A DNA stretch of 64,000 nucleotides from Branchiostoma floridae (Eukaryota > Chordata > Leptocardii > Amphioxiformes > Branchiostomatidae): positions 16,195,452 to 16,259,451 of the forward strand of contig NC_049996.1 in the NCBI RefSeq assembly GCF_000003815.2. The letters run 5' to 3'. A model generated the notes under the pieces. The model saw nothing but the letters and a program-made list of their open reading frames with translations. It was not told where the DNA came from and searched no databases. Made by a program: the position numbers and the translations under genes. Of this stretch, positions 367-28,212 are shown piece after piece (position 1 is the stretch's first letter; every line of letters begins with the position of its first letter).

Positions 367-801
367 ATCCAGTCCTTCCTGTGCGCCTACAGCTGGCTGT
401 GGTGTCGCAAACATCTGCTCAAGGGCAGGCTGGGGACAAAGAGCCAAAGGATAAAATCTTAGAGCGAATCCTAGAACTAGAGCGGGAACTGTTTACTGTA
501 GACGTGTTTAATGATCCGGTACGCTACAGAAAAGTACGAAAACTCTTTAAGAAACACAAGGCTCTGTTAAAGAGGGCTCTTAAGGGATCTGTCATCCTCC
601 TCCTGACGTTCCTACGCCAGACTGATATGGACAGGTTCTACCACAACCACTACAGGGTTGGGGAGGGCAGCCTGTCTCAACAACTCTCACACATCCTCAT
701 CTCAGAACACCTACAGGACAAGGTCAAGGGTGCACAGCTGATCGTGAGGCTCCAGGTGAAGCATGAAGACTATCTGCGGGTTCGAGGCAGACTGGGACAA
801 G
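367..801 (+). CDS. exon: TRADD-N-like domain
   Basis: The acceptor CTAG ends at 366; the Met codon at 336 lies in the intron and is not a start. A charged helical stretch (LERILELERELF, then RKLFKKHKALLKRALK) leads into GSVILLLTFLRQ, a helix ending HYRVGEGSLSQQL, and a strand-helix VRLQVKHEDYLRVRGRL. The order (GS-hydrophobic strand, helix with a YxxG turn, strand, helix with YxxxR) matches the TRADD N-terminal alpha-beta domain and the equivalent exon at 13321-13692. Known for this fold: it binds partner domains in TNF-receptor signalling. The partner here is unknown. Confidence 0.65.
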
Positions 802-2953
802 GTGAGAAATGCAAGTTTTGCTGAAACTTTCAGTTTTGCCCATAACAGAGTCTTAAACTCTTGTGGAACAAAAGAACGAAGATTTATTTCATAATCTTCT
901 TAGTTCTACCAACAAGGATTTAAACTTTCATGTCAATCATTCAATTACAATGTTATTTTCTCCTTTTGTAGAAAAAGTTTTGAAGAGAATAAGATTTCTT
1001 ATTTGCAATAAGATTTAGCATCAAACAACTCAGTCTGTACTTCATTTATTTACATGTGTTATAAATCTAGTCCCTTCAGTCGTTTATCTAATTTTCAAGG
1101 GAGCCTGCATAAAGAGGTCTTACACAACACTTTGACCATGAAAGCTCCTTGCTTTGACCAATAAACAGGATTGGACCGTACCACTTCTGTTGACAACTTG
1201 CTGACCCTCCCACCCCCCAACAGACAAGTGGACCATTCCAGCCTGAGAGCCTTAGACCTGGCCGTGGTTGGTAGAGAGGACCAGTCCTGTGCAGAGGGAC
1301 GTGATCACAACTCAACACCGAAGTTCCGAGTCAGACAGATGCAGGCAGTTGTGAGAACAGGTAGGGAGAAAGCAGAAGGACTGGCTAGGCAGCTGCAAGA
1401 GCTTCAGATCAAGCAGGGACTGACACAGACAGCCAGAGAAGAGACAGAAGCCACAGAATACCTTCTGAGCAAGGAGGTAATCAGGAGGACAGAGCAGAAG
1501 GAGAAAGCAGGGAAAATCCTAGAACAGAAGCTAGAAATTCAGCATCTAAAAGAAACCAACAATAGCATGGCAGCTACAATAGTGGAACTTACAGCTGAGA
1601 ACACAAGGATTTCCAATCGACTTGCAGACATTCCTAAACTCTGTGAAGAAGTCAGAAAATGGAGAGAGAAAGACAAGACATCACAGAAAGTCCTGTCAGA
1701 ACATGAAGTAGAAATCCAGCGGCTCCAGGAGACCAACAAGAGCATGGCAGCTACAATAGAGGAATTGCTGGAGGGCAAACACACACTGGCAGATGGTAAG
1801 GCACAAATAATGCATGAGAACTGCCTTTTTCTAGGCTAACAATGACAACTGTTGTCACTTCTTCCCATGAGTTTCAAGCATGGAAAAACTTCTAGATTGT
1901 GTGAAATTGTCTATATGCTGTTGCAGGTTTTTCAGCTGCGGCCACATCTCAGGACAGCAGGAAATCTCTTCTACAAAGGTTTATGGGTTTATTTTCATCA
2001 AGGGAGGACCGCTTTGAAACCCCGGCAGATCCAGGTACAAATCACACTTTCTAACAATCTAATCCTTTACCAGTTTAAGACAGTTTTTACGGGAACAGGA
2101 CAGTTACAAGGAAGTTTTTTTTACCTGTTCCTTGTAACTGCATAAACTATAAAAGTTCAATGCCCAAAAATTACAAATCTGCATATTGAAATCTCAGTTT
2201 TCTCTGTCTCTAAAAGGCAATAAGCTAGAAAGATGGATGTAGCTATTTGTGATCATTTGTAATACCTGTGCATATTGTAGTATGTATTATATACAGGTAT
2301 ACTTTAGTCTACTATATTAGTGTCCTGTTTGCAATGCATATATGGAAGATATTCGAATCTGCTGCTTTGTAATTCAAAAGTAGGGCAATTCTAATGAAAT
2401 GTACGTTCTATTCATGTCAGCTGTAGGATCCGTTGATGACGAAAGTGGCCCTCTTCGACTCGATGGACGAATAACAACAGGATCCATTGATGACGAAAGC
2501 GGTCCTCGTCGACTCTACGGACGAACAACAATAGGATCCATTGAAGAAAGTCCCAGATACGACGTGTTCATCTCATACAGCAGTAAAGAGTCACCTTGGG
2601 TAAGGGATCTACAAAATGATCTTAAACAAAATGGTTACATCTTGTGTTTATGTGAATGTGACTTTGGGGATGTAGCCAACGCAATTCACCAAAGCCGCAA
2701 GGTAATATTGGTCATATCCGAAAATTTTATCAAGAGTGGTTTGTGCAGCTTTGTACTGAACCTTGTTCGGAAACGTAAACGTGACCTAAAACAAAATTGT
2801 GTTGTCATTAAATATGATGACTGTGAGATACCAAGAGAGTTAGCTGAGCTTACATGTCTGGACTGGGCAAAACAAACAGGCAAGGGAACATTTTGGGCGA
2901 AGCTGCATGAAGCACTCGGACCAGCGCTAGCATTAGTTGAGGAAATTGATTAA
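367..2953 (+). CDS. TRADD-N / coiled-coil / TIR protein, 3' part of gene
   Basis: Coding exons 367-801, 1169-1795, 1927-2034 and 2421-2953 (TGA at the end). Every junction has an AG acceptor and GT donor and leaves one base (G) to complete the next codon, so the frame runs unbroken from a split Asp codon at 367 through 566 further residues. The first exon carries an alpha/beta region like the N-terminal domain of TRADD, the second a long coiled coil, the third a short Ser/Arg-rich linker and the last a TIR domain. The phase at 367 requires at least one earlier exon left of the window. TRADD-N, coiled coil and TIR are protein-assembly modules, so a cytosolic signalling adaptor or effector is likely; that role is inference. 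Paralogue of the gene at 11073-17560. Confidence 0.85.
1169..1795 (+). CDS. exon: conserved linker plus coiled coil
   Basis: Begins LDRTTSVDNLLTLPPPNRQ and continues VDHSSLRALDLAVVGRED, almost identical to the start of the exon at 14960-15619. About 150 residues rich in E, K, Q and L follow in heptad-like order, ending LEGKHTLADG before the donor at 1796. Within it a unit repeats: EIQHLKETNNSMAATIVEL and, about 60 residues on, EIQRLQETNKSMAATIEEL, showing an internal duplication of the coiled coil. Confidence 0.85.
2421..2953 (+). CDS. exon: TIR domain
   Basis: Opens with two tandem copies of a 17-18 residue linker (GSVDDESGPLRLDGRITT, then GSIDDESGPRRLYGRTTI). The TIR follows: box 1 YDVFISYSSKE, helix WVRDLQNDLKQNGY, strand ILCLCECDF, strand VILVISENFIKSGLC, and a box-3-like TFWAKLHEAL. 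These match TLR/MyD88-type TIRs. The stretch after CECDFGD is short: the RDxxPG signature of the BB loop of TLR TIRs is missing, going straight to VANAIHQSRK. One Glu lies just before DFGD, but whether it is equivalent to the catalytic Glu of NADase TIRs cannot be decided by eye. Confidence 0.85.
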
Positions 2954-3362
2954 GTCATGCTGCCCTCCATCACGGTGATTAGGACACATCCAGTTAGGCC
3001 CCCTGACAACTTAAACATATGTCAGGTATTCTAACACTAGGCTGGAAAAGGGTCCATGACCTTATCACATCTCTCAATGAAAACTATATCAATGATTCTG
3101 GAACGATTTGATCTGTAATTTTCAACACAAAAACTGGACTTACCCAAATTTTCAAAATTACAGTTCAACTGCTTTCCAGAATGACATCTACAGGTGATCT
3201 TCAAGTTATATCAATGATTATATACGTACAGCCCCTGCCTTCCTCTTAATCAGGAAGTCTGAGTCACTAACTCTATGGTAGCTAACCACTTTGCGAAGTC
3301 AGCCACTGCCGTTAACCTTTTAGTTAAGCTAGTACGTTAATTTGGTCAACAAGTTAAACTGT

Positions 3363-3487
3363 TAGCCTGGGTACCATCCGATTTCAACCGGGGCTCCTTA
3401 CACTTGCTATAAGTCGCTACCCTATTCTTAATGGTAGCGAGTGTGACTGTAAGGAGCCCCAGTAGAAATAGGATGGTACCCAGGTTA
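3363..3487. mobile_element. short hairpin MITE
   Basis: About 125 bp, nearly all in two inverted arms. The left arm carries CCTGGGTACCATCC and GGGGCTCCTTACA; the right arm carries TGTAAGGAGCCCC and GGATGGTACCCAGG, with a short loop near 3430. The foldback form without coding is typical of non-autonomous DNA transposons. The superfamily was not assigned. Confidence 0.7.
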
Positions 3488-4452
3488 GTGAGCTGTTTGA
3501 TTAAGCTAGTAAGTTAGTCTGGTAAACATGTTATCTCATTAGCATGTGTTCATGAGTTCACATCAGTTATCAATTGAAGTAACATTAATAGACAGTCAAT
3601 GCCTTTGTCAGGAAGAGTTGATGCCTGCCTGCGTGCAGGAGCAATCTCACTTGTAGACATTTGCAGAAATCTAATTAAATATAACATTGGACGACGCATC
3701 CTTTTGTGCACGATAAATGGTGGATGCGACCACCTTAAGAACACTAAACATTTTGGTAGCAGTGTTGTAACACTGTATAAGAGGCAGGATTTTGTAAAAT
3801 GAGCAAAGAGCTAAATTTACAACTTTCTGTATCATAATGGAGGTAATTATAACGTTAGATCCCCAATCTGTAAAAGATTTACCAATGGCATTTTAAGACA
3901 GTATGAAAAGCCGGCCAAGTAGTGTCAAACCACCAATTACATTTGATACTGTCTTATGCCACTGGAAATCTGCTTGGAGATCTCATTACAAAATTGTATC
4001 CAATCCTGTAACAGCCGTGACTGATTAAAGTTGACAAGAATATCGATATCAAAGTCACATTGTAAAGGATAACTTTGACTATGGAATCTGTATAGCTTTT
4101 TTTCTATTATATATTTCCATATTGTAACCAAAATTGGTCGCATGAAGTATTTAGTCATTGTATCAGACATTTTGTCTGCCAATATAAATGTAAATAATCT
4201 ATGAGCAAATTTTATATCAAATTCTGATGATATTGAGATGCTTATTCCAACTATAAGGAACAACTTTTAATGGCAATTTTTAAAAAAAGGATCAAAATCA
4301 AAAGCATATTATGGAACAGCTAAAACCTTACTCTTATAGGAAACATTAAGTAATGTGAAAGAGAAATGCAATCTAAAAAGTGTTTTCACGTGTCATCATT
4401 GTCTTTGCCAAGGTTATTCGGGTGTGTATATCTGACAAACGGTATGTCATTG

Positions 4453-4507
4453 TGTGTGTGTGTGTGTGTGTGTGCGTGTGCGCGCGACTATGTGTGTGTG
4501 TGTGTGT
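4453..4507. repeat. (TG)n microsatellite
   Basis: TG dinucleotides interrupted by a short CGCGCGACTA segment; potential Z-DNA former. The His/Thr- and Cys/Val-rich open frames across it are artefacts of the repeat. Confidence 0.9.
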
Positions 4508-5553
4508 TAACAGCATAAACTTGAGAAGCCTTGGATGGATCCTGATGATATCTGGTAAGTGGGTAGGGGCCAGGAAAATCAAGGTAAACTTTGATAATGG
4601 GCCCCCTAGCGGCTTTCTAATGTATGGCAGCAGAACTTCCGTTTTTGATATCTTGTGATCGTGATTTTTGAGTGGTAGATAGCTCTTAGGACAGAGAGTA
4701 AGTGTTGTTAGTTTAGACATCCCAGCAGCTTTTTCTAACTGCAGGGTCGACTTTGTTTCCAAGTTTAGAATAGAGACTTCTATTTTTCGTTTCCATAGTA
4801 TCAAAGGAGTACTAGTGTTGCATCGTTCAGTCTTAATTCACCAGCGGTAAAATGGGTCACAATGCCAGTGTTTGTGGCCATATCTTTGCACATCAAAATT
4901 GGTACATCATCAGTCATACAGGGATATAACAGATAAAAGCTATCATTTGTTTAGTACTATGCCCACAGACTGACTAGGGTTAAAGTGTTTTATAAGGAAG
5001 AAACCAGGTCTACAAAGGAAACCAACTCAGCACAGCATCCTAGATGTAATAGTCTTTATTAGTAAAAGTTAAAAACGCGGAGTTGTGTATGTTTAAATTC
5101 ATCACATTGATGCAAACATTTTCATACATTATAGATCAGAAACAACCAACACAAAACATCAAGCAGCGCATACTTAAAGTTTATGCCACAGATAAGCTAC
5201 ACTGATTTTTGTTACATTTTGTTGGCTCTCCGATTTTGAAGAGTAAATGCTTAACTAAGATATTAGCTTGAAAACAGTGTGTTAAAATTATACAGCGTGG
5301 CATTCGGCATAAAATCTTTTCCCTTTAGAAGACTCAACACACACCAATAGAAACTCAAGAAGTAGTATAGAGCTAGGCACGACATTAGCTCTGAAACTAA
5401 ATACTTCATCAACAGGTCATTGATGGCAGCTAGACTGGGAATTTCAAACTGATATTATGGCATTTAGAAGTGGCTTTTGGCGACCTGAAAATTACTAGTA
5501 TGTTGTTGCTCTCTGGGTATCCCAGAAGGCCTATTAAAGTCACATTTCCGACA

Positions 5554-5722
5554 GGTGTAGCAGGCCTAGGCTAGATTATACCCGGAGTATACTTTGGCCA
5601 AGGGGGGTATAATCTAGATTACACCCCGGGGTATAATTTGGCCCAGGCTAGAATATACCCGGGTTTAATCTAGGTATACCCGGGTATATTCTGGCCAGGG
5701 GTAGATTCCGGCCTGCTACACC
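5554..5722. mobile_element. MITE with 13-bp perfect terminal inverted repeats
   Basis: Bounded by GGTGTAGCAGGCC at 5554-5566 and its exact complement at 5710-5722. The 169-bp interior is built of repeated, partly inverted TATACCCGGG/TCTAGATTA blocks. Non-coding. Confidence 0.75.
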
Positions 5723-5902
5723 AGGCTTTTCGCGGAAACGAAAAAATGAAAGTTTATTCCAATAAATATCCACGATGTATGTCGTAGAATTTCTACTGAC
5801 GCTGAAGAAGAGTGACGGATGTCACTTGAAATGTCCGGAAGTGAATATCCGTTTTTTTTATCCAGTTGTAAATATTGAATTGTGTTTGAACATTGTTTAC
5901 AT

Positions 5903-6780
5903 GGATGTCTAAGGGTTTTCGGAAAAACCTGTCCAGTCCGGAATGCGGAAAACCCTGTCCAGTCTGAAAAGAGGGTCTGCATGGGGGTATACGTTGTAAG
6001 CTACTAAGTACTAGTATACAACAACATTTTTTATCTTTGATATGGCTAAGCACAGAAATAACATCAACTTGAAATGTGACACAATGTCATACAAAAATTA
6101 TAACTTAACAAAAATCATCCATCATTGTTACTTCTGTGCATCATATAAAAAACTTCTACTCTTTGAGACTGAACATGCTATTAGCCTTACGGCATAATTT
6201 TGCAAATAAAACACATTATTTTTAAAAGGATACATAGTTCTATACAGCTCACAACTTCTACTAGGGTTTGAAAAATGTCATCTCGGCTTTATTGTAGTGC
6301 ATTGTAAAATATATGTAATGTTTTAACATTGTGTACTAAGGTCATTCTTAAACCAGGATTTAAACAGACCAGCTCTCAAAATGAGTACTGCACACTTATC
6401 ATTCAAAGAAAACCTTTCAAAGTCTGTCTTTGTAATGTATTGCCACTATTTAACAACCCGAAATTGATGGACACTCACTATCCATTATTTGATGGACAAT
6501 GGGTGTAATTCTCTCCCCTCATGTCCTACCAGATAAGTGTTAATTGGGTACTTTGCATTTGACAGAACTGACTTTGTGTGCATGTTGTACCTTTAGATCA
6601 CTCATTATGCTGCCGATTCTATAGTTATGTGTATCAGTTTAGTGTAGGTGCTGTCTGAAGTAATAGTTTTAAGCATTGCCAGGAACCCCTATGCAGACCC
6701 TCTTTTCAGACTGGACAGGGTTTTCCGCCCCATTTCCCTGTTTGGACTGGACAGGGTTTTCCGAAAACCCGGATGTCTAA
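5903..6780. mobile_element. two ~90-bp inverted copies of a MITE end, ~700 bp apart
   Basis: 5903-5987 reads GGATGTCTAAGGGTTTTCGG, then CCTGTCCAGTC, then GAGGGTCTGCATGGGG. 6687-6780 is the diverged reverse complement, from CCCCTATGCAGACCCTC to CCGGATGTCTAA. The GGGTCTGCAT ends point inward. The same end sequence recurs at 59428 and 60137. This may be a composite of two insertions or a larger foldback element. Confidence 0.65.
6288..6293 (-). terminator. candidate poly(A) signal of the pannexin gene
   Basis: TTTATT on the plus strand gives AATAAA on the minus strand, about 620 bp after the pannexin stop codon. Position and hexamer fit, but no transcript evidence is visible and other A/T-rich hexamers exist in this region. 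Confidence 0.3.
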
Positions 6781-6909
6781 CCTTCATAAACGTATGTCAT
6801 AACATTATTTTTGTTTCGTGTTGTGTTTTTGTAGTCTTTTATATCGTACTTTTCGTCCCCCCAAACTGCCCATCCGCGTCCCTTTGTGGAAATGTGACGT
6901 TATTATACG

Positions 6910-8797
6910 TTACCCTAACTCAGGTGCTACCTTCAAAAGGCTTTTCACATAGTTATACTTCTCCACCGATTCTATGTTGGCTTTGAAGAAGGCGTGCATC
7001 ATGTGGCTGTCGTTTAGTGACTTGAGTGCTGGCCAGAATTTCAGACGGTGTTTACTAACTTGGTTTGCTTCATCATCTACATGTGGTATAATGATCGGTC
7101 GACTTTGTGCATCCTCATCATTATCATCATCTTTGACTGGCTGGGGGTCAGCACGTCCTCCTCCCTGCCCTCCGTCCTGTTCTCTTTCCTGCCCTCCTTC
7201 CTGTCCTATTTCCTGCCCTCTTTCTTGCCCTCCTTCCTGTCCTCTTTCCTGCCCTCCTTCCTGTCCTCCTTCGTGCAATCCTTCCTGCCCTCCTTCCTGC
7301 CCTTGCTCTTCTTCTTGCTCTGTTTGATCCTTCCTGACTTCAATGCCGACCTCTGCGAAAGGTTGGTCTTTAGCACGCACATGAAGCGTGATTATGTGGA
7401 TTAAAGTCAATATGACATTAACCGCTAGTAGTACCACGTTGGTCCACCAAACATATCGGTGCACTGGTGCCGCAGGGACCGTGCAGGTTACCGAAAACTT
7501 ACTTTCCACTGAACATTGGAACTTGTCCTCAATGCTCGTAACAGAGATGGGTTGGTGCGAGGGATAGGCAACGATAAAAGCAATAGCGATAGAAAATGAC
7601 AAAGCCTGTTTCACTAAGTAACAGATGTACACAGCACGAGATTTCCTCCATTTTTTCACTGCTTCCACCAATTCCTCTTGCTTATATGGTGATTTAGGCT
7701 CTTTATCAATGGCCTGTTCTATGTTCTGACCCTGTCCGTCTGCCGGGGCATTTTCTTGCTCGTTGACCGTATTTTTCTTAGTCTCATCAGCGTCTTTTTG
7801 TCTGAATCGGTCATACAGCACTACCATGTCATATGCTATGAATCTTATATTACAAATGACTTCCCTACCAATGGTGACATTCCAAACCAAGAAAGGTGTG
7901 TACATGAGAGCTGCTTGTATGACCAGCATCAGGGCAAACTGGCTATAGCTAAACTTTGGGTTTGCGGAAAAGGAATTCGTCCCTACACAATAAACGTTTA
8001 CGAACTCAGAAAGCTGCCGGGTGTAGACTGGTATCCCGCTGAAGGGGTTGTCGGTCGAGTTACCGTCAGACACAAACGTTACGTTCTCGGGTTGGACGGT
8101 TCCATGTACCAGGTGCAGGGGGAAACACTTGGTACTGGATCCTGAAACATAATGAAGCAATCAGATAATTCTTATCATACCATGTTTCTTGATGGATGCT
8201 ATGTTCATTTAAATTTGTCTTCCTGTTTCGGCAAAAAGGCGAAGAAATTGTTTGGAGGGTCTAGGTTTGTGGTTGATATTTCTCATACTATGTTGCGAAA
8301 TGACATCAGAAATACTAACATGGCTGACAGGTGGGGGGAAGTGGTGTCTACCAAAATTAGAGAAGTTGAAGTAACAAAACTCAGTTGATCTTGTAGCTGA
8401 AGGGATATACACCCCCCCCCCCCCCCACACACACACACAGAGTTATTTTGCTTCAGGATAATTCCCTGGAAGAGAAAGTCGCGCAATTAAAATACGACAT
8501 AAACTGGGGTGTGCACCATCCTTAAGAAGCAAATTCAAACAAACCTTTATGCTAGACATAATTTTCAGAAGAAAGAAATCTTAATCGGCGATACAACCAT
8601 TTATGTTTACTATACTTGTCTCATGTTCAAGAGGACTAATGATATTTACCTAGCAGATCCCGTCCTACCAGCACAGTAGACATGAGGACCGGCAGCCAGC
8701 AGGAGACGACTTTAAGTACAGAGTCTGCCCACAACTCGGCATGCAGACTTGCCGGGTCCGTCACGTCCACTAACGACTGGAGAAGGGTGTCAATCAT
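6910..8797 (-). CDS. pannexin/innexin-family channel protein
   Basis: Two coding exons: 8797-8650 (ATG at 8797, donor CTAG|GTAAAT) and 8141-6910 (acceptor TTTCAG), joined with one base carried over; 1380 nt, 459 residues plus stop. Four membrane segments are visible: VVSCWLPVLMSTVLVG, LMLVIQAALMYTPFLVW, YICYLVKQALSFSIAIAF and WWTNVVLLAVNVILTLIHII. Each extracellular loop has two cysteines (KCFPLHL and VYCVGT; FQCSVESKF and TCTVP), as in pannexins and innexins. GRDLLGSSTKCFP matches the family's TM1-loop pattern, and NIESVEKYNYVKSL near the C-terminus resembles the pannexin ENISEVKSY end. Family role: hexa- to octameric plasma-membrane channels or gap junctions. Asn-Xaa-Thr/Ser sites in loop 1 (NVTF, NSTD) could be glycosylated, which in pannexins disfavours junction formation. 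Confidence 0.85.
7165..7322 (-). repeat. G-Q-E-rich tandem repeat in the pannexin C-tail
   Basis: A 12/24-bp tandem repeat encodes units such as GQEGGQERGQE in the cytoplasmic tail. It is in frame, so unit number can vary without breaking the protein. The mirror frames on the plus strand (Pro/Ser/Cys and Leu/Pro/Ser runs) are shadows of it. Confidence 0.9.
8410..8440. repeat. poly-C / (AC)n tract
   Basis: About 17 C residues followed by an AC run, inside the pannexin intron. Confidence 0.9.
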
Positions 8798-9689
8798 CGT
8801 GTGTCACTGGTTTGTAAGCTTCGGCTGTGAAGTCAAGAATCAGCGCATTGTAAGACCATGGTATTGTTTGTGAGATGATTGTTTTTGGAAATCCCCTCGT
8901 TTCAATTACAGAATCACATTAACCAGCTGAACACTGCACTGGTTTTCTATAAACGACGGGGAGACTAAACCACCTCGTGGGTAGGCTCTTAAAAGGCGGA
9001 GCACCGGGTCACACCTAACCTTCGATCTAATACAGGTAACTTTGCACATCGAGCTCAATGCGTTGTTTATAGCTATTTATTATAGTTATGACACCCCAAC
9101 AGTACTATTTAATGGTAACGAGTTCCAAGTACACTCGAAAAACTTCAAACCTGGCGTGATGCCGTTACGGAACCTAAGAAAAGAACAATCTCCCACCTAT
9201 TCACTTGAATGGTGACCTGACCTGACTGTTGAGAACACTTCAGCTCGACCATGAAACTAAAAACTGACATACGAGAAGTCTCCATTCAGCTACAATAAAA
9301 GACCTGTCCGTCAGACAAAAAAGGTTGGCAGCAAACAAACGTTAACGGCTTGGCGGCCCTGGCGTGTGTAAAAAGCCCAGTCTTTTCTGAGCACAGTCTT
9401 TTTGTTTAGTTACTTTTCAAACTTTTTTGTAATTCAAAAGGTTTTGCATTTTCCTGAATATTGGGCCAATTCTTACATACGCTTGAGAATACAAACTCAA
9501 CAAGGCTCTTATGACATCCAGTAAAACAGACCATAGTTGACCCTTTATTTTTTTGCGGGAACTACTTATTACCTACAGTGGTAACTTTCCACAGCGGATG
9601 GATATGGGAGTCGTTTAGGGGTCAGGCAGAACATACCTGCGCCAGGTTATGCGTACGGTTACAGGTGCACAAGATGGCTGCCATTAGTT

Positions 9690-9863
9690 ACAGACTGCAA
9701 TAAACCAACCACTGACTTTTCTTAAAGCTAAACCACAGCAAATATGCCCTGAAAACTGTGGTCCGTTCCACAAGCTACAGAGCAAGGGGGCACTGCGGCT
9801 TCAGAACGTCGCCGGGCTCCAAACGACCGAACGACCGACTGTTTCTTCAGAGTCGCTATCTCG
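9690..9863 (+). other. possible 5' UTR exon of the FN3/protease gene
   Basis: A GC-richer stretch ends with a good donor, CTATCTCG|GTAAGC, at 9863. Just upstream (about 9673) is AAGATGGCTGCC, a YY1-type motif often found near animal transcription starts. A 5' UTR exon splicing to 11056 would fit the acceptor TTATCTTCAG in front of the first coding exon. Circumstantial. Confidence 0.35.
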
Positions 9864-10648
9864 GTAAGCTCCTTTTCCTCCTGGTTTTCTATATTTTCAG
9901 CAGCTGTATCTGTGAATTAGGCGATCGAAATTTATTGACTTGATTTCGTGTAAAGGTGTGATTTGTCACTTGATTAAATTCTGTATGGGCACTCGTTCAG
10001 CTTTTTTCACTATACTATTTCCTGTAAAGATATCATTTTTACAGTAGTTGAAATTCTACATGCAAAGCATTACGTTTGGGTATTAACTTTACATACCAAG
10101 ATGATATAGGGAATCCTTTTAGGACAAAGTGAAAACATACAAAATCTTAACAGTGCATATAACTTTTAATGTAAATGATGGCCCGTATTACTGTAAAAGT
10201 GCAGTGTGACTGCTTCACTGCTCCGCAAATAAATAAAATACCTCTTCACTATTTGCTCATCAATGTTCTACTTGCAATGCTCGCAAACAAAAGTATACGT
10301 AACAGCAACTGTTCCTCTGACACATCTGAAATGCAATTAGCACCAGGTGCGTCAGGCATGCGGTCGGTAGACGTTGTGTTTGTCTGGAATAGGCCCAATA
10401 TACGTAACTCAAACGCGGCTATGCGCAGCAAGAGAAAATGGAAATGCAAATCATACGCACGTCATGCGAAATGAATACGCTGAAGTCACAATTCATACGC
10501 CAGATGGGCGTGACGTGTAATTCAATTTATTCCAAAAAATTCCAAAAGTTGGGCGTACGGCTGCGTATTGACAGACATTCATGCGGAAATCATGCGCAGT
10601 TGAAAATAAACGAAGGTGTGACCCCACCTTAATACATGTATTCTGCCT

Positions 10649-10650
<2 letters not shown>

Positions 10651-10690
<40 letters not shown>
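10651..10690. repeat. (TA)n microsatellite
   Basis: About 20 TA repeats between the candidate 5' UTR exon and the first coding exon. Confidence 0.95.
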
Positions 10691-10691
<1 letters not shown>

Positions 10692-11072
10692 TGTGTCAAA
10701 TCGTAGAAATATGGAGTTTTACAGATTTCGTTTGTGTAATGTACGTAAATTAGGGCATTCCAATTGAAATAAAGTTTATTGATTGATTGGCCGATTGATT
10801 GATTTAAACTACAAAGCATATGCGGTACATGCAAGTTGGTTGCTTGGCATAAAAGCAATTTTGTACCTCTGAGTATTTCCAGTACCCCTGTACTGAACAC
10901 CATTGATGTGTTGTCTGTCGCCAGAAAAGTACATTGTACATTGTACAGAAAGTGTTGTGAACCCTCGTTGTTAGATTCATTGACTACTAACGGAGCGTGA
11001 TTTTCAATGTCAACCTTTTCCCCGTCTTGTCTAACTCTTTTTCTTTTATCTTCAGAAACAACTTAACCCATC

Positions 11073-14000
11073 ATGTCTTCTGCTTTCGGAAACCGGGGAA
11101 GTCCAAATGGTAAGAGTTTTAATGTCATAGAGGAAGAATTTTAGACTGGAGTTCAGCCTTCAACGGTTAGCTTTGGCCCTCCCAAACTGGTTTACAAAGT
11201 TTACAAGGATGGAATCCAGACTATAGGAATTTCCAAAATTTTCTTGCATGAATGGAAAGGTAAACAGCAAACATTTGCTCAAGTCCCCATTTTATATCGG
11301 TTATGGCGCAGTAACGCAATAGTTGGGCCGCATTTGGTAAATACAGTAACCCAATATTTACACGTGAAGATATATTATAACTTTAATTTTCTTAAACAGC
11401 TCCACCAACTCCACGGAGGCCACCAGCTGCTGGAGGACACCAAGTGCGATCAGGTAACCAAAACCTATGCAGAGCATGTTGAGTACCAGAGTTACTCGCT
11501 GGGTGTAGTCTTCACTAAAAGGGCATAGCATTTGGCCATTTCGCCTCTTGTGTGTCACCACTATGTAGCCGCCTTCGTAGACTTTAACGGGGTTGGCTTT
11601 TATTATTATAATTTTTTTGTGTGGTAGGGGGCGCTATTTTCGGATTCTCTAATGCCGGGAAAGGGGGTTTGCCTACTGGACAGGAAGTTTCACCACGTCC
11701 CTTCTGCAGTAAACTCTCTTTGCCGTTGACGTTAATCTCCCTCCCCCCTATCAACCATTGGGTGGGTCAATAATACCTTTGCTTTGCCAATCATGGTGTA
11801 CTTTACTAATTGAGTAGCAAAATATGTTGGGGTAAAGTTCTGCAGCCTAGGACATTTTGTAAATTTAACTGCGCTACGCCGATGTTTTAATCAACACCAC
11901 ACGCATTCCTTTTGTTCTAATCCGAAAGTGATGCTCCCAGACATGGTGGCTAGAAACCGGCTAGCAAATTCATTCATAGCTAGAATTGTACCTTTTATCT
12001 TTTCGATAAGAGAGTATCTTTAGCACAACACTAAACATTGACTAAATCGATTCGATCGTACAGCAACCATCAAGGCTCCGGAAGGACTTGAAGCTGTAAA
12101 GACCAAAAATAGAAGTGTCAAGGTGCGATGGAACCCTGTCAATTTGGACCAGCTCCCAGCAGGCTATCAGCTTCTTGGCTACTGTCTAGAACAGCGCATT
12201 ATGGAGACGGAATACGAAGGTCCGAAGCCATGGGTCTCTGCACAAGGACTCAGGAAAGTTTTGGATCCTGCCATTGCAGACTTCACAGTTGTTGACCTGA
12301 CACCTTATGAGGACTACCTGATTTGTGTGAGATCAGCCGCCTTACAACAGGAGCGAGTGATCATTGGCAAGAGATCTGTGCCCATTCATGTTGTGACGCG
12401 AAAGCCACGTAAGTTTGTTCACAAGATTCACTCAACTACCCTTCTGGGATTAATGCATTAATGATCTTCCTATATTAAGAGTAAGACAGATGGGTGTTTT
12501 CATAGCTCACAATGATGGGGTCAACTTTACATCCTATTCTAAGGAGGGCCTTCTAATGCTGTGAGACACAGAATAACTTTGGAGGCTCATATCAACAACA
12601 AAAAAATGTATCTGGTTAAAATATTGCTTGAGGGTTGACCCGGGTTTGAGTTTAGACAGGATTGTGACTGCGCCAGATTTAGCGAACCAAAATATCCGTG
12701 ACGTAATTCAGCCGGTTAAGCTCATTCATATCCAGATCAAGCCAGATTAGGACATGTTCGTGTAAATGCTGTCTTACTGTTGTTACACTTTAATCAGATC
12801 AGCCATACCGACCAAGGAGCGTGCAGATGGACGACACCCACGGGTCCCTCATACTGACGTGGGAAGAACCATCACCTGCTGCAGATGTCAGTCCTGGATC
12901 CTACGAATATGTCGTCGAGATGTGCCTCTATGTTGACGACAAAACTCTACGTGAATGGACAGAGTGCTGCAAAACAAAACAATGCAAGTTCCCCATAAAG
13001 GAGCATCAGATGTGGAAAATCAAAGTGAACCGCAGCGGAGACTACCGATTCCGTGTTTCAGCCAACAATCCAGAACCGGAAAATAGTGTCAGAAGCCTTC
13101 CACAAGAAATGGGTATGAAATTATTTGGCATAAAATTATCATTTTGTTGTCTTCTATCAAAGGTTGACCAATGCTTTTCCCTAGTGCCCCTTACAGTGCA
13201 TATACTGGATAAACAAATAAAGTAAAAGTGAAAGAGAGGTACAACATTATTGCTACGTTCGACAGCCATAGAATAGTGTTTACAAGTCATATCATCATGT
13301 CATTGACATATCTTTTGCAGGAGACCCAGAGATACCCATTAGAATTGAAGCGCCGTGGTCGAAACAGCTGTTGAATGCAGCTGCTGAAGCACTGTGGCGT
13401 TTGCCTGGTAGATTAATAGGACGGGAGCATGGAAGCATCATCTTCGTCATCTCCTGTCATGACGTCATCAGCCTCCGTGACCTGTGGATGAACTACAGGC
13501 TGGGGAAGGTAAAGAAGTTCTTCCAAAACCTGTTTACTCACCGGACCAGGCCTGCCTCTGTGGTCACAGACACAGAACTGAAGATAAACATTGAGGAACA
13601 AGATTTCTACTCCTGCCGCCGACACCTCCTGCTGACCAGGCCTACAGACAAAGGGTTTAGAGTAGCAAGACTTGGAGATACTCACTCCAGAGGTGGGTGT
13701 ACCTGTATTCAGCTTCTCAGTTAAGGACACTGTAACGGAAGTTAATACAATAAAGTGAAATGATAAGGTGATTCAAATTTGTTAAATTCATAATGATGTA
13801 TACGTATTCCATCCAACATCCCCACGTACTCAGGCAAACCACTGGGCCTAAGTGAAGATTACCCAGTCTACTGCAAACCCACATCTCACAGGACAACCTG
13901 CCCACGGCTGGACTTTTTGGACCCTGCAGTTTCAACCACTCGACTTAAAGGTAGTTAACACTCTAAACATGGATTCTTTGGTCAGGTGATGATTGCAACT

Positions 14001-17000
14001 GCAAAGCAGCATGTTGAGATAGACACAAGTATTGATAACTTTATGTTGATTTGAAGGGGAACAAGACAGATCCTGATGATTTTATTGAGTGAAATCTCTC
14101 ACGAGGTCTTGTTTTGATAATTTGTTACAGTGAAGCATGAAGAACATGTGCGACTCCGACCAGGACGAGGTGAGACCCTTAACCCTATTCAGACGGTGGA
14201 AAAAACACCATTTCTTTCTTGTCTGTTGACAGGAACGTTTTACGAAAATCAGATCAAGAATAACTAGCTTATTATCCATAATAAGTTGTAACTACCTGGT
14301 ATTTTTTCATTAAAAAAAACGTTTACATGAACGTTTTCAGTCTATTTTTGTTGTCTTTTGAGATCATTTATCGTCAAAAATGTTTTTTTTTTTAATTCAA
14401 GGAGGAGGATATAAGATGGCGGAGCCCAATTTGTATCTTACATATGCATGGCGTCATTTCATGACGTTATTTTGACGTCATTGATGTTGTTATTGGCAAT
14501 ATAAGTCGTAATAAACATAAATATTCTGTTATCTACACTTGTTGTTACATCTTTGTATCATACCTTGAAGTTTTCTGAGAATACCCCTTTTTCACAGTTG
14601 TAGCCAATAAAGTCAAATTGATGACGTCAAATGTCTTATAGTCGTCAGATATTAGGTCTACATCATTCTCTAAACATTTGGTGGTCGTATGATAATTCGT
14701 TTTACTTTTAGAGTTACAGGTGTCAGAAGGGGCGGGTCTCAAAAGCAGCTCTTGTCATCTAGTTGGTGATTATCTCGGTTTCAATAGAACTTTGTAGATT
14801 TGCAGCAAGACTTACCGTGAAGGTTACAGTGTTGAAACTGACAGTGTTGTTTATTATAATAATCAGTATAAAACAATAGACTAGTAACAATTGTTTTCCA
14901 TATGTACACAATTTGCTACATCTGTCACTTACTTATTGTCCATTATTCCTATTGAACAGGACTGGACCGTACTACTTCTGTTGACAACCTACTGGTCCTG
15001 CCACCTCCTAGTAGACAAGTGGACCATTCCAGCCTGAGAGCCTTAGACCTGGCCGTGGTTGGTAGAGAGGACAGGTCCTGTGCAGATGGGGCTGATGACG
15101 TCTCAACACTGAAGTTCAGAGGCAGACAGGTGCAGGCAGTTGTAAGAACAGGTAGGGAGAAATCAGAAGGGCAGGCTAGACAGCTACAAGAGCAGGGACA
15201 GATGCAGACAGCCAGAGAGGATACAGAAGTCATGGTGCACCTTCTGCGGAAGGAGGTAATCAGACTGACAGAGCAGAAGGATAAAGCAGACAAAATCCTC
15301 GTCGAACATAAGCTGGAAATCCAGCAGCTCAAGGGGGTAATTAAGATCATGAAAGTTGCAATAGAAGAACTGCTGTATGACAAATATACAGCAAAGGCTC
15401 TGAGTCAGGGTCAAGGCCATGGGAGAGAAGGAGACCCGGCTGAGGAGAAAGCCTCTGCATCTGAGGAGAAAGCCTCTACATCTGAGGAGAAAGCCTCTAC
15501 ATCTGAGGAGAAAGCCTCTACATCTGAGGAGAAAGCCTCTACATCTGAGGAGAAAGCCTCTACATCTGAACTTTCTGAACCAGAAGAGAAACCAGTGGCT
15601 TCTAACACAGCTAATAAAGGTGACATTCGGCGTACATAAGTGAAGTTTACTGTTTGTTAAATTTGTCTGAAGGTAACAACGACAACTGTTCTATTTTCCA
15701 TGACAAATGTCTTAGAGAGATAAAGTTGTCTGAAATCAGTACATTTGAATAGTGTTCAAATGTTGCTTTTGGCTAGGTTTTAGTTTAATTTGTTGCAGGG
15801 TTATATCGTGGTTCAAAGGCAAGAAAATGTTTCTAAAAACAGACTAACCATCCCACAAAATAAATTACTAAGTGTGCAACCTTACACTATATGTGAGAAA
15901 TCCAGCTTCTATAGGGAACACACATTACTCTGTTTAATTTTTGTAAACAGGGCTGAACAATGTTTTCCTTTTATTATGTTTCATGCTGTGGTTTCATAAA
16001 GGACTACTGCAGTTCTGATCATCGAGTTGTTGATTTATCAATGAAATGCATCTAAAGGCTAAATACTAATTGTGATGCCTTCTATCTGCTAGATGTTACA
16101 GATTTTTTCGCCATAGTGGCTTCACTGAATCTACCATGGGAAGGTATTGGGAGAAACCTGAGTCTGCCCGATGCTACCATCGAGCGAATCAGACAGAAAC
16201 ACAAAGATGACACATCAACAGCAGCAGCAGCATTGTCGCAGCATGATGACACTGAGAGATGCTGTACACAGTGCTGTTTGGCAGCACTAGAAGAGTGGCA
16301 ACATCTGTCTGGCACCAGCGCATCCATAGAGGGACTGAAGACAGCACTGAGAGCACCAGGACAGGGTGCCATCGCGGAGGAGTTAAGCAAAAGGTGACCT
16401 TAATTCTATTTTTCGATTAGAATAGCTGTAATTAAGGGTTAATGGCCTGCCCCGAGGTGTATATGGTGCCATAACGACTGGTCCTTTGCTATAACCACCG
16501 AATGAAACCACCGAGTGAGCGAAGCTCATCCAAACTGACCCGGCTCCACTCTGAACGCTAGCGCCGCTTCGTCCAATTGTTCTCCCTCAGAAATTGTTGC
16601 TCCTGGACGTCGCCCAGAGCTTCCCATGGCTCGAAAAATTTGCCTAATCTGATTTTGAGATTTCTTGAATGAAAAACTGCAGCATTATGTCCATAATTTG
16701 CGTATATCTTCTTAATTATCATGTACCAAACTCTGTTTTTCAGAGAGCAGCTAATGAGTGAAATGGTTTCGCCGAGCAAATTGACAAGCATGATGAATCT
16801 TCACGCAGATGTCTATGATGTGATACAGGATAGGATGCGATCCGTGTGTCGTATTAACTGGCCTGGGGGGTCTGGAACCGGTTTCCTGTTGAGTAAGGGA
16901 AAGATTCTTACATGTTACCATGTGTATAAGTTAATGATCGATGCCTCAAGAATGTTCACTGATATAAGTTTGTTCACTGCAACATTCTTTGTGTCTTCTG

Positions 17001-17560
17001 CAGAAGAATACAAAGTTAGCTTTCCTTCCACCACCCTCAAATGTCATAGTGAAGAATCTGACCTAAACTATGCCATTCTGCAATTGTCTGTAGATGATGA
17101 AACAGCGAGTGTCATTGACAGCCTGCCTTGCCTTGGGCGGTACATATCAGAAAGCGAAGACAACCGTAACATGGTAGTTATTGTTGGGCACCCCTACAGT
17201 GGGAGCAAGATGGTTGACTTCTGTCCCATCGTTGGCATGGACCAACGCTACATCATCCATGCCCGCTTTAGGAACCCTGAATTTCCCCATGAAGACCCAC
17301 GCAAACCTCTGTACCATACAGGTGTCATGTTCCACGGCTCCTCAGGCTCCCCAGGGTTTGACACGAAAGGTAATGTAGCGCTCATGCACACCCGAGGGTT
17401 CTACTCTGACATGAGCAGACAGAGCATCGTTGAGCAAGGGGTTAGTCTGTCTGCCATCAGAGACCATGCGCGTCAAAACCTGGCACCTGATGACTTAAGC
17501 GAGATCTTTCCTGATACTAGCGATACTTTCCCAATGGAGGTTGTTGATGTGGAATATTGA
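11073..17560 (+). CDS. FN3-FN3-TRADD-N-coiled coil-death domain-trypsin-like protease
   Basis: Ten coding exons: 11073-11109, 11400-11453, 12064-12408, 12798-13112, 13321-13692, 13834-13950, 14131-14169, 14960-15619, 16093-16393, 16744-17560. All have AG/GT borders; the first eight introns are phase 1 and the last phase 2. The total is 3057 nt, exactly 1019 codons with the stop. No signal peptide (starts MSSAFGNRGSPNG), so the product is probably intracellular and the FN3 domains are not extracellular. Domain order: FN3 about 31-145, FN3 146-250, TRADD-N-like about 288-355, coiled coil 450-585, EEKASTS repeat 588-630, death domain 647-735, protease 777-1000. A death-fold protein with its own protease suggests assembly-triggered proteolysis in immunity or cell death; that is inference. 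Confidence 0.85.
12064..12408 (+). CDS. exon: fibronectin type III domain 1
   Basis: One exon, one domain. It begins APEGLEAVKTKNRSVKVRW and has the FN3 hallmark tryptophan (VRWNP), Tyr in GYQLLGYCLE, Leu-Pro-Tyr in VVDLTPYEDYLICVRS, and a closing strand. Both borders are phase 1, as is usual for mobile FN3 exons. Confidence 0.75.
12798..13112 (+). CDS. exon: fibronectin type III domain 2
   Basis: YRPRSVQMDDTHGSLILTW then EEPSPAADVSPGSYEYVVEM carry the FN3 B strand (LTW) and C strand (YEYVVEM). The end, GDYRFRVSANNPEPENS, is the canonical YxxxVxAxN FN3 F strand. Phase 1 at both ends. Confidence 0.8.
13321..13692 (+). CDS. exon: TRADD-N-like domain
   Basis: GSIIFVISCHDVISLRDLW, then MNYRLGKVKKFFQNLF, then TDTELKINIEEQDFYSCRRH. 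This is a strand, a helix with the WxxYxxGK turn, a strand, and a helix with the YxxxR pattern, as expected for the TRADD N-terminal fold. It occupies the same place, before the linker and coiled coil, as the exon at 367-801. Confidence 0.65.
13834..14169 (+). CDS. two short linker exons
   Basis: 13834-13950 (39 codons, GKPLGLSEDYPVYCKPTSHR onward) and 14131-14169 (13 codons, VKHEEHVRLRPGR) both begin and end in phase 1, so either could be skipped without changing frame. No domain was recognised. The TIR paralogue has no counterpart between its TRADD-N and coiled-coil exons. Confidence 0.7.
14960..15619 (+). CDS. exon: conserved linker, coiled coil and EEKASTS repeats
   Basis: Begins LDRTTSVDNLLVLPPPSRQ, shared with the exon at 1169-1795, then a Q/E/K-rich coiled coil with LEIQQLKGVIKIMKVAIEEL. 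It ends in a low-complexity tail of 7-residue repeats and SEPEEKPVASNTANK. High similarity to the 1169-1795 exon, at DNA level too, shows a recent duplication or gene conversion. Confidence 0.85.
15444..15570 (+). repeat. 21-bp tandem repeat encoding EEKASTS
   Basis: Six units, one EEKASAS and five EEKASTS, nearly identical in DNA. In frame, so length variation between alleles is expected. It forms a charged flexible tether between coiled coil and death domain. Confidence 0.9.
16093..16393 (+). CDS. exon: death domain
   Basis: About 90 residues: DVTDFFAIVASLNLPWEGIG, then RNLSLPDATIERIRQKH, CCLAALEEWQHLSGTSASIE and GLKTALRAPGQGAIAEEL. This is the death-domain helix order, with W in helix 2 (LPWEGIGRNLSL), the I-x-x-I helix 3, the L-x-x-W of helix 5 and the T/S-x-x-x-L-x-x-A-L of helix 6. 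Ends in phase 2. Confidence 0.8.
16744..17560 (+). CDS. exon: trypsin-fold (FAM111/HtrA-like) serine protease
   Basis: About 271 residues in one exon. VCRINWPGGSGTGFLLSKGK is the N-terminal strand pair. The triad is readable: His806 in LTCYHVY, Asp853 in SDLNYAILQL, Ser947 in FHGSSGSPGFD (numbers on the full model). YHTGVMFHGSSGSP resembles the substrate-pocket region of FAM111 and other Trypsin_2-type intracellular proteases. No propeptide-like Arg/Ile cleavage site was seen, so activation is probably by assembly rather than zymogen cleavage (inference). Confidence 0.8.
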
Positions 17561-18209
17561 TTATAATCCTCATGAAGCGTACACTAGTACTCATAGTCAT
17601 GGACATGTTCACTACTAAATAGACTGTCTCACTGCATAGATGATTTATTGATACCATTATATTTGAGGACTTTAGCGAGGTCTTTCCATTGTCATTTGAT
17701 TATGGCATATTTGCAGTAACATTTCATCATGTACATGTGTATGGTATACCGGTATGCAAAGAAAATATCTGATTATACCAAATGATGCATACAACTTAGA
17801 TTACACAGATTAGAAGTAATGGAACGCGACAAAGCGGAGATGTTTTTCAGTAGACATCTGAAATGATAACCAATACATGGACTAAGGAGGTGATGAGCTC
17901 GTTTCTACTTCAAGATCTTGTCCTATGGAAGGGGGCGACTGTTAAAAGGAATATCTCAATAATGGTTAACGATGAATTCAGCATGACAAGTAACCTGTTT
18001 CGTAGAACTAAAACGATTGATAATGCTGCTCGAACAGTATCGTTGAATGAGAGTGGGCCGGCTATGATTAATGGTGGATGAAATTAGCTTGCAACGCTTA
18101 ACGAGAAAGGGCATGCAAACCCTCTTACTTGAAATGTTTCAGGTCAATATCTGTATCTGCTTGGAGAATAGGAGGACCACAGGTGGAAAGTTAAGCAAGT
18201 TTTATTGCT
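17561..18209. other. 3' flank of the protease gene
   Basis: The 3' UTR and downstream sequence up to the retrotransposon. No AATAAA was found near the stop and no exon recognised. The small open frame at 17863-18081 has no recognisable features. Confidence 0.5.
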
Positions 18210-20628
18210 ATTATAAAAATTGCTAAAAAAGAAAAAACGAGATTTCCACCAACAAATCATGGATCAATTGTCTTCACTAAGGGAAAGAAACCCGAGTGCA
18301 TTCTGGAATTTGATAAATAAACTGAAACCAGGAAAGCCAAATGACGATAACCAGATTACAGAAGAGGAATGGGTAAACCACTTCAAGAATCTTGACAAAT
18401 TTTCTGATAGCCCTACAGACAACGGCCTTCCCAGTGAAAACATTCAAACAGACTTTTCGAACACCCCACCAAACTCGTCAGAACTGGATTCCACAATTAC
18501 CCCAGAAGAATTGGACACCGCAGTCTTAAAACTAAAAAACAATAAGTCAAGCGGCAATGACAGAATTTTGAATGAAATGCTAAAATCTGGTAAAATGTTG
18601 CTTAAAGAACCTATACTCCACTTGTTTAACACTTGCTTACAAAATGGTCATTTCCCGCAAGAATGGTCAGTAAGTCATATTGTTCCTATCCACAAGTCAG
18701 GAGACACCTCCCTGCCAGATAACTACAGAGGGATTTCTATAATCAGCTGTTTAGGGAAATTATTCTCCTCCATTCTAAATTCACGCCTTGTCAAATACGC
18801 AGAACACAATAACCTCTTCCAGCCACACCAAGCAGGCTTCAGACAAAACTTTAGAACTACCGATAATCTGTTTGTTTTAAGTACACTAGTTAGCAAATAT
18901 CTAAACAAAAACCGTCAACTTTACGCTTGCTTCATTGATTTTAGCAAAGCATTTGATTCTGTTTGGAGAAACGGCCTCTTGTTTAAATCGAGTAAACTCG
19001 GTATTGGTGGTAAATTTCTAAAAGTAATAGAGGGCATGTATTCAAAGACTATAAACTGCGTTAAATCTAAAAATGGATTGACTGAAACTTTTGTTACTAA
19101 CTGTGGTGTGAGACAAGGGTGCAACTTAAGCCCTACATTATTTAACCTTTTTCTTAGCGATATTGTGTCCCAATTTGACGGTGCTCCTTGTAATCCCCCA
19201 CTTATGCACAGCAAAACTGTCCCATGCTTGTTGTATGCTGACGACTTGGTAATTTTTTCCGAGTCCAAACAGGGATTACAGCATTCCTTGAACAATCTGG
19301 AAAATTATTGTGCACTTTGGAAATTAAAAGTAAATCTTAGGAAAACAAAAATTATTGTATTTACAAAGGGTGGCAGTCTACCTAAAAACTGTTCTCTCCT
19401 GTTTGATAATCGTGAAATAGAAATTGTAACTTGTTATACTTATCTTGGTATTATTGTGAGTGCAGCTGGCACGTTTAAAGCTAACAACAAATACCTGAGT
19501 GGCAAAGGTCTGAAGGCTTTATTCGGAATAAAACAATCTTTAGATAAAGCCACCGCCTCATTACCAGTTAGAAACAAACTTTTCGATGCATGTGTCAAAC
19601 CTATTCTACTTTATGGCTCAGAAATATGGGGCGCATTTAAAAGCCCTAAAACCTGTCCCATTGAATCTGTTCACCTTAAATTCTGCAAACAAGCACTAAA
19701 TGTCCCCAGACCAGCATCTAACCTTGCCACAAGAGCGGAATTAGGGAGGTACCCCATTCAACTGGAAGCCTCCCTGAACGCTATCAAACACTTTCTAAGA
19801 ATCCGTCAAAACGTGCCAGCTGACAGTCTACAAGCCGACGCCCTATCTTGTCAATTACAACTAGATGATAATGGAAATAAGTGCTGGGCGTCCGGCGTTC
19901 GTAAGATACTGGAGGAATGCGGTTTTGCCTACATATGGAGATCTCAAATATCTCTAGGAAGAAACCTATCACCTATAACCAACGCCATCAGCCAACGATT
20001 AAAGGATATTTACATTCAAACATTTAGAACCGAAATACACAATGACAACCGGGACAAATCTTTCGGTAACAAATTACGAACCTATAGATTATTCAAGACT
20101 ATTTATAAAGAAGAAGAATATCTGATGGTGAAAAACATACAGCACAGAGTGGCTGTCACTAAACTCCGGATTAGTTGCCACAAGTTACATATCGAAACTG
20201 GAAGGCACAACCGCACCCCTCTGCAGCATAGAGTCTGCCAATTTTGTGATCTACAACATGTAGAAGATGAACAGCATTTTATTTTACACTGTAAATTGTA
20301 CCATAATGAACGGATTGTGCTTTATGAATATATCAGAAAAGAGTTCCCATATTTTGAACATCTGAATGCAACGGATAAATTTCTATTTTTGATGCGCCTA
20401 GACAAACCCTGTATATCAAACATTATATGTTCTTATATCTACACCTGTTCAAAGAAGCGAAAAGATGTCGACCATCCTGTTAGCTTAGTACCTTCAACTA
20501 GTTAAATTGTATCCTGTTGTTTTTTTCATATATTTGTTATTCTGTTATCAGTCACGTCTGTTATCAGTGACCTGTACCTAGCCCGTCGAGGCATGAATGT
20601 ACAATAAAGGTCTTTCATTCATTATAAA
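18210..20628 (+). mobile_element. 5'-truncated non-LTR retrotransposon (LINE)
   Basis: Contains the RT half of an ORF2 with no upstream endonuclease, then a short 3' UTR with AATAAA near 20602 and a TTTCATTCATT tail. ATTATAAA occurs at 18210-18217 and again at 20621-20628, a candidate 8-bp target-site duplication around a 5'-truncated insertion. The clade was not assigned; the C-terminal layout resembles jockey/RTE/CR1-type ORF2s. Confidence 0.85.
18220..20505 (+). pseudogene. reverse transcriptase ORF2 fragment
   Basis: 761 codons open from 18220 without a stop. RT motifs are in order: NNKSSGNDRILNEML (fingers), LPDNYRGISI, ACFIDFSKAFDSVW about residue 237 (motif A Asp), GVRQGCNLSPTLFNLF about 297 (motif B), LLYADDLVIF about 339 (catalytic YADD), and ALWKLKVNLRKTKIIVF. 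A Cys/His knuckle (CQFCDLQHVEDEQHF) lies near residue 672. The intact frame implies a young copy. The apurinic endonuclease half is absent, so it is called a truncated element, not a host gene. Confidence 0.85.
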
Positions 20629-26677: not shown

Positions 26678-26958
26678 CACCACATCATCATCATCATCAG
26701 ATGACGATCATCAGATGACCCCGCGAGGGGCATAGTAGGGGGGGGGGGAGTTGAGGTCCCGGGTTAGGGCGGGCAGCCCTCCTGCCTGGCACTCAACGCT
26801 GGGAGCACTTACTGCCGTGTCAGGCAGGAATTGTTCTGGGAAAGTGTGAGAATTTGTATGTGTCAGTGCGGGCTGGTTCTTGAGTTGGTGGCTTAGTAAC
26901 CACGAGTACGCCCTTGGTTGCTTTGAGCAAGTTCCGTGAATATAAAAAGGACGACAAA

Positions 26959-28212
26959 ATGGCGGCTGCACTCTCAAGTTTAAGGGAGGACATCTGTGAA
27001 GACCTGACCTGCAGCATCTGCCTGGAGCTGTTCACCAGGCCCAAGATGCTGCCCTGTCAGCACACCTTCTGTCAGGACTGCATACAGCACCTTGTAGGAG
27101 GTGGAATCTTCTTCCTATGCCCGTACTGTCGCCAGCTGACCAGGATACCAGCCCAGGGGGTCCCAGGTTTGCCAGACAACCGCATGGCTTCAAGTCTGTG
27201 CAGGAAACTTAAACGGCAGTTGGGAGAAATTCGGCCTGGACACTCTGGGTCTATCTTAGCAGGAACGTCACGTAACGTTGCAGCACTGGACGCAGGACAA
27301 CGTCACGGGAACCAACAGCAAACAGAGCCTTCAAGGATAATGATTGGTGGGGAGGGATCGAGGAAAGGGGAGTTTCGGTGTGCCGTTGGTGTCGCAGTGT
27401 CAGATGAAGGGGAGATCTTTGTAGCAGACCATCGGAACCAGAGAATCCAAGTCTTCACCCTGCGGGGGGCATTCGTTCGGCAGTTCCCAACGGTCGTGCC
27501 CGATGAAGAGACGATGATGAATCCTGACGATGTGGCCTTGGACGGGGAGGGGAACCTGTGGGTGGTGGGGAAACAGTTTGTGGTAGAGAAGCCAGACTCC
27601 ACTGGCTTTGCTGTGCGGTACACAAAACAGGGCATTGTGCAGGAGAAGTTTGACCTACTAGGCATCAGGTGGTACAGAGGAGTTGCCGTGGACACCAGGA
27701 GGAACCACATCCTCATCACACAAACCGTAGGAGATTGGGACAACCAGGACAAGCTATGTGGTGAAGTGCACGTGTTTCGTGCAGATGGAACACTTGTAGG
27801 AACTGTTGGCGCTCATAACTCGTGGTGGGGCTATCTGTTTAGACGCCAGAGGTTGAAGTACCCAGCGTTCCTTACTGTGGATGGGGACGGAAACGTGTTC
27901 GTGACAGACTGTGAGAACCACTGCGTGTTTGTGTACAACGAGGACGGACAGTTTCTGTTCCAGTTCGGAGGCGAAGGAAGCGGTGACGGCCAACTCAACG
28001 ATCCCCAGGGCATATGTACAGACAGTGCGGGGAACATCGTCGTGGCAGACATGGGAAACGGGCGTGTGGAGATGTTTGACAAGACAGGCAAATTCCTGCG
28101 ACACGTCGCCACGGATGCGCAGCGCCCCCTGGCCGTTGCCATGGCAACACAGGGTCAGCTGGTGGTTACAGATATGCATCATGACATAGTCACCATATTT
28201 GGTAACTACTAA
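26959..28212 (+). CDS. RING finger / NHL-repeat protein (TRIM2/3/32/71-like), intronless
   Basis: 417 residues in one exon. Start at 26959 (CAAAATGG) is preferred over the in-frame ATG at 26914 because of its Kozak context and because the RING begins 17 residues later. C3HC4 RING: C18-S-I-C21, then LPCQHTFCQDCIQH and LCPYCRQ. After a linker of about 65 residues, NHL repeats begin (GEFRCAVGVAVSDEGEIFVA, DDVALDGEGNLWVV, PAFLTVDGDGNVFVTDCENH, GQLNDPQGICTDSAGNIVVA, ending QLVVTDMHHDIVTIFGNY), about six blades. No B-box or coiled coil is seen between RING and NHL, unlike full TRIM-NHL proteins. Likely E3 ubiquitin ligase with substrate or RNA recognition by the propeller (family knowledge). Being intronless, it may be a retrogene or a single-exon family expansion. 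Confidence 0.85.
   Translation: MAAALSSLREDICEDLTCSICLELFTRPKMLPCQHTFCQDCIQHLVGGGIFFLCPYCRQLTRIPAQGVPGLPDNRMASSLCRKLKRQLGEIRPGHSGSILAGTSRNVAALDAGQRHGNQQQTEPSRIMIGGEGSRKGEFRCAVGVAVSDEGEIFVADHRNQRIQVFTLRGAFVRQFPTVVPDEETMMNPDDVALDGEGNLWVVGKQFVVEKPDSTGFAVRYTKQGIVQEKFDLLGIRWYRGVAVDTRRNHILITQTVGDWDNQDKLCGEVHVFRADGTLVGTVGAHNSWWGYLFRRQRLKYPAFLTVDGDGNVFVTDCENHCVFVYNEDGQFLFQFGGEGSGDGQLNDPQGICTDSAGNIVVADMGNGRVEMFDKTGKFLRHVATDAQRPLAVAMATQGQLVVTDMHHDIVTIFGNY

Follow-up and report, generated by a model that had tools for sequence, protein, structure and literature searches.

Human FAM111A has been described as a dimerization-dependent protease whose catalytic triad consists of His385, Asp439 and Ser541 and in which pairing orders the oxyanion hole and switches the enzyme on, autocleavage being independent of pairing (PMC10920703). 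Its activity was reported to trigger caspase-dependent apoptosis (PMC7534640). A published FAM111A tree covers 14 species including a lancelet, all of which are said to keep an intact triad, and the same report describes a FAM111A-like protein from a lancelet (PMC9798293). DEDD2-clade TRADD-N proteins were reported to be expanded in lancelets and other marine invertebrates, to carry variable flanking effectors and to be encoded near retrotransposons (Kaur et al. 2021, PMC8195603). In that account, TRADD-N adopts an RRM-like fold with a turn made of a tiny residue and Ser between strands 2 and 3, human TRADD carries a TRADD-N domain and then a death domain, and the trypsin fusions described are bacterial. 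Bacterial EAD-trypsin and NucA-trypsin conflict systems, in which a small assembly domain is joined to a Trypsin_2 domain, have been described as well (Kaur et al. 2020, PMC7159879).

Here we describe a gene of ten exons lying in a 64,000-nucleotide window, the whole stretch of DNA that was analysed, from Branchiostoma floridae. Its product is best read as a new version of the established TRADD-N/death-fold effectors, equipped with a FAM111-like protease. Like the DEDD2-clade proteins, it combines an effector with death-fold and TRADD-N-like domains, and it resembles the bacterial systems in joining a small assembly domain to a homologous Trypsin_2 domain; the main text of PMC8195603, source data tables aside, makes no mention of FAM111, fn3, FNIII or fibronectin. 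The explanation that we prefer, with a probability of about 0.5, is an intracellular signalling gene built by exon shuffling in which the FAM111-like protease is strongly weakened or dead.

As the original prediction had it, the ten exons splice in phase into 1018 residues without internal stops, and all nine introns (9/9) are GT-AG (Table 1). Exons 2 to 8 have phase 1 at both ends; exon 9 also starts in phase 1, and its junction with exon 10 is in phase 2. No in-frame Met occurs in the Death exon, and the reading frame opens just 39 bases upstream of it, hence this exon needs splicing to upstream sequence and cannot start a gene alone. Frame, phase and the absent start in this exon thus argue, at the level of sequence, for a single gene rather than neighbours run together, and the domain order that had been proposed holds in outline.

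Table 1. Exons of the ten-exon gene and of the neighbouring gene (gene A) in the window, with the basis for each assignment.
Feature	Position	Strand	Content	Basis
Exons 1-2	11073-11109, 11400-11453	+	Pro-rich leader, ~30 residues	Splice
Exon 3	12064-12408	+	First FN3-like domain	Pfam fn3
Exon 4	12798-13112	+	Second FN3-like domain, weak	Pfam fn3 and Tissue_fac, below cut-off
Exon 5	13321-13692	+	TRADD-N-like, with Gly-Ser turn	Predicted model, no family match
Exons 6-7	13834-13950, 14131-14169	+	Linker	Splice
Exon 8	14960-15619	+	Charged linker with SEEKAST repeat	Common to neighbouring gene
Exon 9	16093-16393	+	Death domain	Pfam Death
Exon 10	16744-17560	+	FAM111-like trypsin-fold domain	Pfam Trypsin_2, FAM111A match
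Gene A exon	367-801	+	TRADD-N-like	Length, phase, Gly-Ser motif
Gene A exon	1169-1795	+	Linker, homologous to exon 8	DNA identity
Gene A exon	1927-2034	+	Short linker	
Gene A last exon	2421-2952	+	TIR	Pfam

Pfam matched Death at residues 655-694 with E 6e-5 and 23.5 bits in the whole protein, and with E 1.5e-7 and 31.9 bits when exon 9 was searched alone; both scores exceed the curated cut-off of 22.6, which bears out the predicted death domain. The FN3 assignment came close for exon 3, for which fn3 scored 24.6 bits in the whole protein, 0.4 bits short of the Pfam cut-off of 25, and 22.7 bits with the exon alone, but no fn3 score reached that cut-off; exon 4 gave 13.4 bits for fn3 and 15.9 bits for Tissue_fac, each below its Pfam cut-off. 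Exon 5, predicted to be TRADD-N, matched no Pfam or NCBIfam family. Neither PF09034 nor PF20694 matched it at E up to 10 in a scan whose search filters drop weak matches, whereas human TRADD matched both. Its pairwise scores against TRADD were equalled by 49/500 and 61/500 shuffles with two matrices and are not significant, setting it apart from human TRADD, which is not known to have a protease or FN3. Structure searches with exon 5 were uninformative. A low-confidence AlphaFold model made from two sequences (pLDDT 51.4) starts with a strand, a helix and two strands, continues with two helices, a strand and a helix, and ends in two short strands; Gly37-Ser38 falls between strands 2 and 3. The predicted order and the position of the Gly-Ser motif fit the arrangement described for TRADD-N (PMC8195603). 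What stands of the TRADD-N claim is therefore this motif and modelled order, but not a match to the family models or a significant likeness to TRADD, and we regard exon 5 as probably TRADD-N-like, not proven as TRADD-N.

A coiled coil had also been proposed; a crude heptad test of exon 8 gave it no support, since 43/200 shuffles scored as well. Exon 8 contains a SEEKAST tandem repeat at 15442-15561 (+) with six copies of EEKAS, none of which occurs in the linker exon of the neighbouring gene.

The proposed FAM111/HtrA-like affinity of the C-terminal domain was supported by Pfam, which matched Trypsin_2 at residues 791-958 above its cut-off (E 9.7e-10 in the whole protein, 1.8e-10 in the exon alone), and by phmmer, with which just two PDB sequences fell below E 0.01, both of them FAM111A (E 1.9e-11 and 5.5e-11). 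In a MAFFT alignment, the human FAM111A protease domain (8s9k/8s9l) is 35% identical to the query and shares with it the motifs GHPY, TCxHV and MHxxGF. A profile built from 16 plasmid and viral-contig relatives gave 67.0 bits for the query and 54.6 bits for the FAM111A fragment. When these 16 relatives were placed in a tree with the query and FAM111A (18 rows), the latter two came out as sisters with support of 96/84, a position of which we are unsure, both branches being long. Where vertebrate FAM111A has two ubiquitin-like domains, the lancelet protein carries a TRADD-N-like part and a death domain; ubiquitin-like domains were absent from the Pfam hits of the 1018-residue protein, although Pfam may not detect them, and two marine invertebrate FAM111A-like proteins were also reported to lack them (PMC9798293).

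The original prediction described an intact protease that has its His, Asp and Ser in place. Two of the three, His806 and Ser947, are indeed retained opposite FAM111A His385 and Ser541, as is the GSSGSP motif at Ser, but Asn855 (codon AAC, 17066-17068) aligned opposite the catalytic Asp439, in a register that is firm because the bacterial relative L002 aligns there without a gap. Across the 18 rows, His and Ser were each present in 18/18 and Asp in 17/18, the query being the sole exception; the column thus holds Asp in 17/17 aligned relatives, including 16/16 bacterial or viral-contig rows. The Asp meant originally was probably Asp853, two residues upstream of Asn855; at the position of Asp853 the 18 rows vary among D, E, R, K and A. 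Judged by this substitution, the protease would not be intact. In trypsin, the same Asp-to-Asn change cuts activity several thousand-fold at neutral pH. Given that the triad was reported to be intact across 14 species (PMC9798293), Asn855 is unusual. The predicted fold of residues 748-1018 had a mean pLDDT of 32.1, too low for triad geometry. In FAM111 proteases an N-terminal helix makes the dimer; the same low-scoring model has a helix at 10-30 of exon 10.

Because the catalytic Asp is Asn855, we prefer a weakened or dead protease and rank an active one second. A working protease that is switched on by death-domain assembly, as originally proposed, with Asn855 tolerated or Asp853 acting as a substitute, appears doubtful in view of the 17/17 Asp column, the variable position of Asp853 and the cost of the equivalent change in trypsin. 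Nevertheless, the triad differs at one residue only, a change for which one base (AAC for GAC) may suffice; the Ser motif is retained, as is much of the fold. This argues against a dead enzyme, as long-dead enzymes often lose more. An active protease would also agree with the retention of His806 and Ser947, with the dependence of FAM111A activity on pairing (PMC10920703) and with the resemblance of the bacterial relatives to parts of predicted conflict systems. Among PADLOC defence models, the query domain matched RT-Protease_XI with E 3.3e-8 and, weakly, Avs1b (PADLOC E 0.0041; NCBIfam E 0.013, far below cut-off), matches that also favor activity.

Thirteen of the 16 relatives were scanned with Pfam (L001-L005 and L009-L016, with L006-L008 left out). 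An effector-associated domain was found in 5/13 (EAD1 in two, EAD8 in two and EAD11 in one) and a nuclease-family domain in 6/13 (Endonuclease_NS in four, Endonuclease_1 in one and Exo_endo_phos in one), shares that are not frequencies, the 12 plasmid rows being a selection from longer lists. On a Nostoc plasmid (L014:2150-5687), an EAD1-trypsin gene is followed by a second EAD1 gene, a MoxR ATPase and a VWA gene, and one EAD8-trypsin gene lies after a NACHT gene. These loci fit the conflict systems as described in PMC7159879 and PMC8195603, thereby supporting the parallel with bacterial assembly-domain proteases that had been drawn for the lancelet gene. The bacterial proteins differ from it in using other assembly domains and in keeping the triad Asp in 16/16 rows.

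If the protease is strongly weakened or dead, as we prefer, the FN3-like pair and the TRADD-N-like domain would receive or relay a signal, and the death domain would assemble the protein with other death-domain proteins, thereby crowding the C-terminal FAM111-like trypsin fold. The output could then be proteolysis of strongly reduced strength, or a pseudoprotease could pair with intact relatives, presumably encoded in the same genome, and tune or block them, by analogy with the action of c-FLIP on caspase-8. If the protease is dead, the protein is a candidate decoy within a caspase-independent death-domain pathway. Since FAM111A needs pairing for proteolysis (PMC10920703), death-domain assembly beside such a fold would be a plausible switch.

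We consider it unlikely that the protease is absent from most transcripts, either through read-through of the exon 9 donor to a stop, which would yield a TRADD-like adaptor, or because exon 10 is a separate gene. A TGA does lie right after the exon 9 donor (16395-16397), exon 9 ends, by our own reading, at about the end of the death domain, and the donor is middling at 6.7 bits, a score that 3.2% of the GTs in 1-20000 reach (about 3% for the donors of exons 8 and 9 alike). However, the exon 8 donor is equally middling at 6.6 bits, the exon 10 acceptor is a CAG with 71% pyrimidines upstream, and its phase fits that of exon 9. In the neighbouring gene, moreover, a TIR exon takes up this end.

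The end of this second gene, gene A, occupies 367-2952 (+) at the left edge of the window, on the same strand as the ten-exon gene, and its start probably lies to the left of the window. The TIR exon scored above the Pfam cut-offs for both TIR_2 (48.8 bits) and TIR (34.9 bits). The TRADD-N-like exon of gene A gave no Pfam or NCBIfam match, and its TRADD-N tests were not significant. The linkers of the two genes are clearly related, 14955-15332 and 1164-1550 being 82% identical at the DNA level over 390 columns, and the conserved block starts no more than 5 bases from the predicted acceptor. A weak resemblance was also seen between exon 7 and the end of the TRADD-N-like exon of gene A (23 bases, 87% identity, E 0.31). 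The three visible internal exons of gene A are phase 1-1 and its TIR exon is entered in phase 1, like the death exon. The shared linker and matching phases show that the two genes have a common scaffold with different endings, TIR in one and a death domain plus a FAM111-like domain in the other, and from its sequence gene A would be an exon-swapped effector. We also consider it unlikely that Asn855 reflects a sequencing error, a rare allele or the onset of decay in a recently dead gene: although the difference is of one codon at a locus read from one copy, the rest of the 1018-residue frame is open and dN/dS between the two linker exons is 0.50 (193 codons, without an error estimate and with a poorly aligned tail included).

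On a strongly weakened or dead protease, a wider scheme may be put forward tentatively. A scaffold of TRADD-N-like domain and linker would be fitted by exon shuffling with either a TIR domain or a death domain plus a FAM111-like pseudoprotease. Through assembly, the pseudoprotease would act as a brake on active FAM111-type proteases or as a decoy for them, and the locus would be an animal counterpart of the bacterial conflict systems that pair an assembly domain with trypsin. If true, FAM111, a human protease tied to antiviral defence and DNA replication, would join the assembly-domain-plus-trypsin logic of these predicted bacterial systems, and the locus would provide an example of an animal swapping immune effectors as exon cassettes. 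No description of a death-domain-FAM111 fusion was recognised in the titles and abstract starts of the papers listed by the literature searches, and supplementary tables may list this architecture.

Several other features were observed in the window. Just downstream of the ten-exon gene, a long open frame of the non-LTR reverse transcriptase type extends over 18217-20505 (+), with an RVT_1 match of E 2e-39. A 416-residue open frame at 6910-8160 (-) has a sub-threshold Innexin match (E 3.6e-4) and an EGGQE-rich repeat. A single open frame at 26884-28212 (+) combines a RING domain with NHL repeats and is TRIM-like, and the open frame at 38326-38991 (+) contains a tandem repeat.
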